Positions 883 through 4,143 of a stretch of 64,000 nt of DNA are shown piece after piece. The notes under the pieces are model-generated. The model saw only the letters and a program-made list of their open reading frames with translations. It did no database searches and was not told the origin of the DNA. The DNA is from an uncultured SAR86 cluster bacterium (lineage in GTDB: Bacteria > Pseudomonadota > Gammaproteobacteria > Magnimaribacterales > D2472), in assembly GCA_902591565.1 (NCBI GenBank), contig CACJBC010000003.1, forward strand, positions 22,289 to 86,288, in the 5' to 3' direction. Position 1 is the first letter of the stretch. The number at the start of each line of letters is the position of its first letter. The translations under genes and the position numbers were made by a program.

Positions 883-1230
883 ATGCCAAGAGTAACAAAA
901 TCAGTCACAGCAAAATCAAAGCATAAGAAAGTTTTAAGTGCTACTAAGGGTCATTATGGCGCTAGAAGCAGGTTGTTTAAAACTGCTAAACAGTCAAATA
1001 TAAAAGCTCTACAGTATGCTTTTAGAGATAGAAAAAATAGAAAAAGAGCATTCAGATCGCTTTGGATTGCCAGAATAAATGCTGGCGCAAGAGAATTAGG
1101 CGTTTCCTATTCCAATTTAATTGCTGGACTAACAAAAAAAGAAATTCTTATTGATAGAAAAATTCTTTCTGATCTTGCAATAAATGATCAGGCAACTTTT
1201 AAAAAGGTTGTTGAAACAGCAGTTAAATAG
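883..1230 (+). CDS. rplT: 50S ribosomal protein L20
   Basis: [37 protein letters not shown]; synteny. Confidence 0.97.
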
Positions 1231-1242
1231 AATTTTTTAAAA

Positions 1243-1965
1243 ATGTCTGAAGATACTGGCATTTATCCAAAGTTAAATATAGAACCTGGAACAGTTCATC
1301 CAATTAATCAAACCAAAAAGTATATCTTAGATATTCTTTCCAGTATTGGATTCGATAATATTAGCGGTCCAGAAATTGAAACTGAGGAATATAATTTTGA
1401 TATGCTCAATATTAAAAAAACTCATCCTGCAAGACAAATGCATGACACTTTTTATGCTCAAGATAAAAAATATGTATTAAGAACGCATACTTCCCCTGTA
1501 CAAATTAGAGCTATGCTTGCTAATAAACCTCCCATGTCTTTTACCTCTGGTGGAAAAGTTTATAGAAAAGATGATGATGCTACGCATTTACCAATGTTTC
1601 ACCAGGTTGAAGGAATTCACATAGATAAAAGTGTTAACTTTGCTCAATTAAAAAGTTTAATATTTCAAATAATCTCTGAAATATTTGGTGATGATGTAGA
1701 GGTGAGGTTCAGGCCTTCATATTTTCCTTTTACAGAGCCATCAGCAGAGGTTGATATATTATCTAAAGAGAGTAAGTGGTTAGAAATTCTAGGTTGTGGA
1801 ATTGTTAATCCAATTGTTTTAGAAAACTGTAATATTAATTCTGAAAAATATAGTGGCTTGGCCTTTGGTCTTGGAGTAGAAAGAATTGCAATGCTCAAAT
1901 ATGGGGTCACAGATATTAGAGACTTTTATAAATCCAACTTAGACTTTTTAAAACAATTCAATTAA
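1243..1965 (+). CDS. pheS: Phenylalanyl-tRNA synthetase alpha subunit, lacking the N-terminal coiled-coil domain (240 aa)
   Basis: Class II aaRS motifs (FRPSYFPFTEPSAEVD, GLAFGLGVERIAMLKYGVTDIRDFY); begins 12 nt after rplT, directly at the catalytic domain. Confidence 0.95.
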   Translation: MSEDTGIYPKLNIEPGTVHPINQTKKYILDILSSIGFDNISGPEIETEEYNFDMLNIKKTHPARQMHDTFYAQDKKYVLRTHTSPVQIRAMLANKPPMSFTSGGKVYRKDDDATHLPMFHQVEGIHIDKSVNFAQLKSLIFQIISEIFGDDVEVRFRPSYFPFTEPSAEVDILSKESKWLEILGCGIVNPIVLENCNINSEKYSGLAFGLGVERIAMLKYGVTDIRDFYKSNLDFLKQFN

Positions 1966-1969
1966 CGAG

Positions 1970-3871
1970 ATGAAGATTGCATACTCACATCTTGTTAGTT
2001 TTTTTGAAGAACAACCATCAATTGAAGAAGTTTCCAATAATCTTTTTCAGTTAGGGCATGAAAATGAAATAGACGATGATATCTTAGATATTGAATTTAC
2101 CCCTAATAGAGGAGACTGTTTATCTTTACTAGGTTTGGCTAGAGACTTAGCAACTTTTTACACTATTTCTGAGCCATTAACTTATTATGAAGATGATCTA
2201 GCACCACTAGAAATAGATTTTGTAAATCATTCAGTTAACGACTGTCCCAATATTTCTTTTTTAACTATTGAAGTTGATGAAGTTCCTAGTGTTTATAAAG
2301 ATTATTTAGAGAGCTATTACAGCACTTTTAAAATAAATAAAAACAATTTTTTTACCGATGTCTCGAATTATATTGCATATGAAATGGGTCAACCAACACA
2401 TTGTTATGATAATTCATTAATTCATGGGGGTATTGAGTTTACATCGGATATCATAAATGAGGATTTTGAAACTTTACTTGATAAAACAATAACCCTTGAA
2501 GGCACAAATTGTGTTTTTAAGTCAAATAATGAAGTAATCAATCTAGCTGGAGTTATGGGAGGCAAGTCAACAGCATGCAATAAAGATACTAAAAGTGTTT
2601 TAATTGAATGTGCTTACTTTAAGCCTGAATCAATTATTGGAAAAGCACAAAAATATAATTTGCATTCGGATGCATCATATAAGTTTGAAAGAGGGGTAGA
2701 TCCATACATTCAAGAGCAAACCTTAAGAAGATTTATCAAAATCGTATCAGAACACACAACAATAAAAGATATTAAGTTTAAAAATTTTTTCTCCAAAGAA
2801 TTACCTCTTAAAAAGATAAAATTTGATCATGAAAGAATTCAAAATATACTCGGAACTGAAATTCATGATGAAACTTACAAAGATTCCTTAACAAAAATTG
2901 GATTTGAAGTTGAAAATGATGAAGTAATCGTTCCTTCGTATAGACATGATATTATTCATCAAAATGACCTCGCTGAAGAAATGGCTAGAATTGTAGGCTA
3001 TGACAATATTCAAGCAGCAGAATTTAAGATAACTAATTCTGAAAGTAATAAAAATTTTGACGAAGAGAATACATTGAGATATTTTTTAGCTGGCCATGGT
3101 TTTAATGAAGTTGTTAATATGCCATTTACATCAAATAGCCCCGCTTCTTTAAAAATAGATAATCCCTTAGATTCAAACAGAAGTTTTTTTAGAACTACTT
3201 TGAAAAATTCACTTATAGACAATCTTTTATACAATGAAAAAAGACAAAAGGAATCAATAAAGTTATTTGAAATATCAGATATTTATTCAATAGATAGTGA
3301 TGGTGAAATAGTAGTTGATAAATATCTTGGCATTATTGTGTCTGGTCGTGTGGGAAATAATTATAAAGAATTCTCTCAAAAACTTGATTCAAAATATCTA
3401 ACTAGACTACTAGAAATTGATCAAAATCAGGTTTATGAAATATCAAGAGAAGAACTAGATACTAAAATTAAAAATAAAATTTATGTTGCGTTGCTTGAAT
3501 TTAATAATTTACCAAAAAATTTAACTAATATAGAAAATCAAAAATTAGATAATATAAAATTTAATAAGTACATACCTATATCTGATTTTCCATCGTCAAC
3601 CAGGGATTTATCATTCGTTTTATCAGATGAAAGCAAAATCAATAAAATAGAAGATTTTATTTTTAGCTTTAGATCTATTAATCTTAAAAATGCTTTTGTA
3701 TTTGATTTTTATAATGATAGAAAAAATGACCAAATTAAAATAGGATTTAGGTTCATATTTAACTCAAAAAATAAAACCTTAACAGTTGATGATGTGGATA
3801 AAGAAATTGATGATATAGTAACATTATGTATGGAAATTGGCGGTGTTGAAGTGCCAGGATATTCTCAATGA
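1970..3871 (+). CDS. pheT: Phenylalanyl-tRNA synthetase beta subunit, reduced (633 aa)
   Basis: IEFTPNRGDCLSLLGLARD, INLAGVMGGKST, C-terminal FDX-ACB (FPSSTRDLSFV..FDFY); follows pheS. Confidence 0.94.
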   Translation: MKIAYSHLVSFFEEQPSIEEVSNNLFQLGHENEIDDDILDIEFTPNRGDCLSLLGLARDLATFYTISEPLTYYEDDLAPLEIDFVNHSVNDCPNISFLTIEVDEVPSVYKDYLESYYSTFKINKNNFFTDVSNYIAYEMGQPTHCYDNSLIHGGIEFTSDIINEDFETLLDKTITLEGTNCVFKSNNEVINLAGVMGGKSTACNKDTKSVLIECAYFKPESIIGKAQKYNLHSDASYKFERGVDPYIQEQTLRRFIKIVSEHTTIKDIKFKNFFSKELPLKKIKFDHERIQNILGTEIHDETYKDSLTKIGFEVENDEVIVPSYRHDIIHQNDLAEEMARIVGYDNIQAAEFKITNSESNKNFDEENTLRYFLAGHGFNEVVNMPFTSNSPASLKIDNPLDSNRSFFRTTLKNSLIDNLLYNEKRQKESIKLFEISDIYSIDSDGEIVVDKYLGIIVSGRVGNNYKEFSQKLDSKYLTRLLEIDQNQVYEISREELDTKIKNKIYVALLEFNNLPKNLTNIENQKLDNIKFNKYIPISDFPSSTRDLSFVLSDESKINKIEDFIFSFRSINLKNAFVFDFYNDRKNDQIKIGFRFIFNSKNKTLTVDDVDKEIDDIVTLCMEIGGVEVPGYSQ

Positions 3872-4143
3872 CTGTAACAAAAAGAAAAATTGCAAAAAAA
3901 ATTGCAAAAAATATTCAAATTAATGAATCAGAATCCTTAGCAATTGCTAATGGTTTCTTTGAAATTATAAAATCTAATTTATCTCATAATATTGTTAAGA
4001 TATCTGGATTTGGAAGTTTTCATCGAACAATAACCGCTCAAAGAATTGGTAGAAATCCAAAAACAAAAGAAGAGTTTATTATCCCATCAGTTAGCAAGCC
4101 TATTTTCAAAGCATCTGCAGCTTCTAAAGGAGTATTTAATTGA
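3868..4143 (+). CDS. ihfA: Integration host factor alpha-like HU/IHF protein
   Basis: 91 aa HU/IHF fold, KISGFGSFHRTITAQRIGRNPKT; follows pheT as in other Gammaproteobacteria. Confidence 0.88.
   Translation: MTVTKRKIAKKIAKNIQINESESLAIANGFFEIIKSNLSHNIVKISGFGSFHRTITAQRIGRNPKTKEEFIIPSVSKPIFKASAASKGVFN

Follow-up and report, generated by a model that had tools for sequence, protein, structure and literature searches.

The window, a stretch of 64,000 nucleotides from an uncultured SAR86 cluster bacterium, carries on its forward strand the genes rplT (883..1230), pheS (1243..1965), pheT (1970..3871) and an ihfA-like gene (3868..4143) that shares 4 nt with the end of pheT. The genes pheS and pheT encode the alpha and beta subunits of phenylalanyl-tRNA synthetase (PheRS), an essential enzyme that charges tRNA-Phe with phenylalanine. 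The order rplT-pheS-pheT, with rplT as the upstream neighbour of pheS, is constant across all SAR86 loci read, and the ihfA-like gene was also detected in SAR86 members with a long PheS and at the locus L027.

PheS has 240 residues and consists of the class II core alone (PF01409 at residues 10-239, E=7.5e-97), with a TIGR00468 score of 301 bits against a cut-off of 237. By Pfam, the coiled coil (PF02912) is absent from this protein and from the whole genome of the window, and because pheS starts 12 nt after rplT, there is no room for an N-terminal extension. An earlier note on this DNA had described PheS as truncated, which is borne out by these results.

The pheT product, identified by its open reading frame and by Pfam and PDB matches, is a beta subunit of 633 aa without the B2 domain. 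B1 is represented by an N-terminal half (residues 1-34; 1970..2071) that ends where B2 is missing, and by a second half with the TPNRGDC motif (residues 35-63; 2072..2158); the former was placed by aligning the protein with PheTs of E. coli and other organisms, the latter by Pfam and alignment, and Pfam gives only a weak partial match to B1 at residues 27-63. The B3/B4 editing domain follows (residues 121-262; 2330..2755; PF03483, E=2.3e-40), with its active-site residues kept, and then the B5 domain (residues 283-344; 2816..3001; PF03484, E=8.1e-20). The CLM (B6/B7; residues 353-479; 3026..3406) matches positions 9-148 of the 214 of PF17759, which leaves the C-terminal third of the profile missing, and the FDX-ACB (B8) anticodon-binding domain (residues 538-621; 3581..3832) matches positions 1-86 of the 94 of PF03147 (E=4.7e-15).

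The Pfam scan did not find PF01588 (tRNA_bind) in the window PheT, whereas the same scan of E. coli PheT located it at residues 45-145 and recovered complete CLM and FDX-ACB domains. At the junction 2071/2072 the protein passes from GHENEI, which ends at residue 34, to DDDILDIEFTPNRGD, and it is here that E. coli PheT has about 118 extra aligned residues, corresponding to B2/EMAP. From TPNR to the C-terminus the window PheT is about 40 residues shorter in the alignment; nearly all of this deficit falls within DFYDLKG..HPGQ..GFVGVVHP, the stretch at 600-690 in E. coli, and a diverged LDSKYLTRLLE stands at the usual DFYDLKG position. Absence of the B2 insert, loss of this C-terminal stretch and retention of FDX-ACB had all been read from the sequence in the earlier note, and all three readings hold, with the qualification that two residues of the anticodon-binding domain, the equivalents of E. 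coli Ser755 and Arg794, are replaced. As would be expected of a PheT with missing parts, its TIGR00472 score for the bacterial equivalog (386.7 bits) falls just under the cut-off of 402.65, which is a score threshold and not a biological feature. B2 (PF01588) counts among the marks of bacterial PheRS, and other accepted bacterial PheTs also lack it; the domain is not strictly defining for the bacterial enzyme.

Against the PDB, PheT matched beta chains of bacterial PheRS best, and PheS the alpha chains; a fold search gave about 52% identity between the PheS core and E. coli PheRS alpha. AlphaFold2 returned a mean pLDDT of 88.8 and a pTM of 0.65 for PheT, and 71.3 and 0.73 for PheS; these single-chain models, which are silent on the tetramer, support intact domains in both subunits. 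The canonical bacterial enzyme (alpha2beta2 in E. coli and T. thermophilus) is the best match in sequence and fold, and shares with the window the pheS-pheT operon between rplT and ihfA as well as the class II core, B1, the B3/B4 editing site, B5, CLM and FDX-ACB. In contrast to it, the window enzyme lacks the coiled coil and B2, has a shorter CLM and carries replacements of two near-invariant FDX-ACB residues, which leaves 873 residues per alpha-beta pair compared to 1122.

The window's genome (G000; 1.07 Mb) is fragmented, with 34 contigs and 83% completeness, and an assembly or gene-calling artefact, or an intact second pheST elsewhere in the genome, could in principle account for such an architecture. 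However, the identical arrangement is found in dozens of independent genomes and in named SAR86 records, e.g. AG-287-G07, AG-430-O03, AG-918-K05, AG-898-K03 and AG-422-P06, where a contig scan with PheTs of the clade that has the short PheS (hereafter the short clade) revealed PheS of 238-241 aa and PheT of 633-645 aa; these matches place the window in SAR86. The earlier note had named a second full-length pheST, or the missing domains elsewhere in the protein, as observations that would overturn it. No second pheT or pheS was found in the window's genome or in its relatives, and near-complete relatives likewise have a single pheT ORF. Across 116 genomes of the order, pheS matches above the cut-off amount to one gene per genome, except in G533, where a contig end carries an additional incomplete copy, and the rate at which pheS is missing agrees with genome completeness. 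The only PF01588 in the window's genome lies at the end of an ORF that looks by its sequence like MetRS. An artefact or a backup copy can therefore be given next to no credence.

Several observations concern individual records. In the genome G007 (L028), pheT is intact and pheS is seemingly interrupted by a frameshift or stops, possibly through sequencing error, while a SAR86-type short pheST in a metagenome-assembled genome labelled Flavobacteriaceae (L151, JADHME010000003.1) probably reflects mislabelling or mis-binning. In the SAR86 families f2, f3 and f4, tRNA_bind is found as a separate protein of about 110 aa (e.g. G042:C1:585369-585650), and in most genomes of f1, the window's own family, the domain lies inside an ORF of 650-680 aa, which is the MetRS in the window's genome. 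The standalone protein is no clear substitute for B2, as it also occurs alongside long PheS and the window's genome has the domain fused to MetRS.

B2 is missing throughout the order, where every intact PheT found has an open frame of 632-699 aa and the match to the family model begins near position 155. PheS, on the other hand, is bimodal: its open frames measure 239-262 aa in genera g1, g2, g4, g5, g6 and g8 of f1 and in f4 (g13), and 324-346 aa in g7, g9 and g10 of f1 and in f2 and f3. The intact genes read at individual loci divide without exception into PheS of 240-241 versus 323-333 aa and PheT of 632-645 versus 661-679 aa, and the genus-by-genus split is repeated across 100 genomes of the order. 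Accordingly named, the short clade has PF02912 above cut-off in none of 16 genomes, compared to all eight of the long-form SAR86 genomes. In a survey of Pseudomonadota, in which every genome except the window's was at least 95% complete, PF02912 was present in 246 of 249; the window's genome is one of the three without it, and the other two are probably assembly gaps, with close relatives that carry the domain.

In the wider class, PheT measures 790-800 aa in most families, and at least nine other scattered gammaproteobacterial families have PheTs of 653-692 aa without B2 (L039-L042, L047, L048, L050, L054, L056). All nine retain a PheS of normal length (326-358 aa), and this distribution suggests that B2 was lost repeatedly across gammaproteobacterial families. 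Absence of B2 from PheRS beta has also been reported for many CPR bacteria (PMC5370408). In the Pseudomonadota surveyed, the coiled-coil loss was found only in one pheST clade, comprising six genera of the window's family and another SAR86 family, f4. In f4 the CLM is whole, matching the profile to 213 of 214, as it is in long SAR86 PheTs; only the subgroup to which the window belongs has a truncated one (profile to 148 and 158). Since B2 is absent order-wide and the CLM tail is intact in f4, the order of losses is B2, then the coiled coil, then the CLM tail; B2 loss is recurrent and first, and the coiled-coil loss later, rare and placed once on the pheST tree.

This order bears on the proposal of the earlier note that two tRNA-contacting modules had been lost together to give a coordinated minimal PheRS, with one loss making the other module useless. 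Both modules are indeed gone from the window and from every short-clade genome, and the coiled-coil loss is seen on a B2-less background only. The joint timing does not stand, however, as B2 was lost earlier: a phylogenetic check of whether the losses co-occur, which the note had suggested, found B2 absent from SAR86 lineages that keep the coiled coil (f2, f3 and the long-form members of f1) and from the at least nine outside families with normal PheS, and the coiled-coil loss has a single origin. A simultaneous event is already contradicted by these lineages, and a coordinated loss seems quite improbable.

The history of the short form was followed with a pheST tree built from conserved PheS and PheT columns, from which the lost modules were left out. 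The short loci of f1 and f4 group together (SH-aLRT 100), and the stem leading to them measures 1.39-1.55 changes per column. All SAR86 sequences form a single clade in the focused version of this tree, but not in a wider tree with long-branched rows. In the rpoB tree, in contrast, short and long members of f1 form one clade with a support of 100 and f4 falls outside. Monophyly of f1 is rejected on the pheST data (AU p=4.9e-5, log-likelihood 209 worse), and the conflict concerns L021-L025 (f4) against L026-L031 and the window (f1 short). The reduced pheST has thus probably moved between the f4 and f1-short lineages, in either direction and into the same position after rplT. An rplT tree, which addressed whether flanking DNA moved with pheST, was limited by a gene too short to resolve. 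The coiled-coil loss and the two anticodon-domain replacements occur together in the short clade, and the CLM tail is also lost in part of it; all these traits share one origin and offer no independent replicates of their association.

In Thermus PheT, G34 of the tRNA is contacted by Asp729, Tyr731, Ser742 and Arg780 (PMC9976931). The first three correspond to E. coli Asp742, Tyr744 and Ser755 by PDB alignment coordinates, with which the spacing agrees, and the near-invariant E. coli Arg794 is most likely Thermus Arg780, with a mapping that is off by one. In the window, Lys590 (codon 3737..3739) replaces the near-invariant serine, and Pro629 (codon 3854..3856) replaces the near-invariant arginine. 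The Ser755 position is Lys in 20/20 short-clade PheTs and Ser in 19/19 long SAR86 and 110/113 other sequences; the Arg794 position is Pro or Glu in all 20 of the short clade, Arg or Lys in all 19 long SAR86 PheTs and Arg in 112 of the 113 others. Asp742 is kept in 20/20 short-clade PheTs, where Tyr744 is Tyr or Phe. These alignments indicate that the short clade has an altered anticodon-reading surface in addition to its altered domain content, a feature that is absent from the earlier note; the Ser755 and Arg794 replacements in short-clade PheTs are new here. The G34-stacking Tyr is also Phe in five of five long-form f1 loci (L016-L020), and drift of the anticodon domain may have begun before the coiled coil was lost.

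Across the order, tRNA-Phe hardly varies, and U20, G34, A35, A36, G44, U45, U59 and A73 are kept in the short-form genomes. The sole clade-specific change is U60 to C60, which is found in the window's subgroup and not in f4: C60 is present in L128 and 13 other f1-short tRNA-Phe loci, and U60 in 14/14 long-form SAR86 and in f4. Co-evolution of tRNA-Phe with the short PheRS was considered and nearly nothing beyond this substitution was found; in f4, the tRNA-Phe comparison gives no tRNA-side support for rewired recognition. As far as the compared genes indicate, the enzyme changed and tRNA-Phe did not.

The residues at E. coli positions Asn254, Gly261, Gln262, Pro263, His265, Gly315, Gly318 and Glu334 are unchanged in 11/11 short-clade PheTs, the Thr354 position is Ser and Ala356 is kept in 10 of the 11. 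From the E. coli and Thermus literature we take these positions to be the editing pocket. The region that had been called editing-like is therefore more than that, as its active-site residues are conserved. Such conservation argues against the possibility that the short pheST is decaying, with editing and specificity fading and Tyr-for-Phe errors tolerated, for which some mycoplasmas and mitochondria offer a comparison. Decay would fit the very long stem of the short clade, the replacement of two anticodon-domain residues and the loss of B2, a domain that is reportedly dispensable and contributes to editing, to go by the title of a 2006 paper by Roy and Ibba. The short form is, however, conserved across two families, and since it has been kept in many of their species at 43-50% PheT identity, it is under selection, which makes decay unlikely.

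The locus is better explained as a functional PheRS, the only one in this SAR86 bacterium, reduced stepwise by genome streamlining, competent in editing, and reduced and rewired in its tRNA recognition, a reading that we consider likely. The losses, their order, the conserved active site and the unchanged tRNA are read directly from sequence. B2 was lost first, in all SAR86 examined; in one pheST lineage the coiled coil of PheS then disappeared, and in the same lineage B8 of PheT lost two residues, at least one of them a G34 contact in Thermus PheRS; the subgroup of the window lost the CLM tail last. What is retained is the catalytic core, the editing site in B3/B4 and, in B8, the Asp-x-Tyr/Phe pair.

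It is from this pattern that we infer activity, weaker or rewired tRNA binding and the efficiency of editing. The coiled coil participates in tRNA binding and aminoacylation (PMC3275996), and with this contact gone, tRNA-Phe would still be charged and proofread, but through fewer contacts. Without the coiled coil and B2, the acceptor end would be gripped chiefly by the catalytic core and the anticodon by the altered B8, where G34 would be read through a changed surface. Such a hold would be comparable in principle to that of mitochondrial PheRS, whose recognition is restricted (PMC9976931), and editing would persist, although it may be weaker without B2.

In bacterial PheRS a single tRNA is in contact with all four subunits, a feature given as the reason for the tetramer, and the tetrameric arrangement has been called conserved in every known species (PMC3275996). 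A more speculative idea, to which we give only a small chance, is that the short-clade enzyme is an alpha-beta heterodimer, in which the tRNA would be independent of a second heterodimer and the altered B8, with Lys590 and without the C-terminal Arg, would read the anticodon in a new manner. If true, the short clade would provide the first two-subunit PheRS in bacteria to escape the tetramer rule.

The SAR86 enzyme shares the lack of B2 with the PheTs of CPR bacteria, for whose PheRS beta the absence of B2 is the one feature reported (PMC5370408). Human mitochondrial monomeric PheRS also lacks both the coiled coil and B2, and has a restricted identity set (PMC9976931); however, it is a single chain of core and B8 without editing domain or CLM (PMC3275996), whereas the SAR86 enzyme has two subunits and keeps the editing domain, and no mitochondrial-type fusion of core and B8 is present in the window, where pheS and pheT are separate genes. 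Archaeal and eukaryotic cytosolic PheRSs are heterotetramers that have core domains in common with it, but have no B8 and carry DNA-binding-fold extensions on alpha (PMC3275996), while SAR86 keeps B8. In the literature covered, no paper was found that deals with SAR86 together with either phenylalanyl-tRNA or aminoacyl-tRNA synthetases. The short PheRS of SAR86 is a known enzyme in a new form, the B2 loss itself having already been published for CPR bacteria.

To conclude, a natural PheRS without the coiled coil in abundant free-living ocean bacteria makes the explanation given for the tetramer directly testable, with the long-form relatives within the same order serving as natural controls. 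It also offers a minimal two-subunit PheRS for work on tRNA identity, editing and orthogonal aminoacylation. The SAR86 bacteria, abundant in the ocean and small in genome, thereby provide a natural test of how little a PheRS needs.
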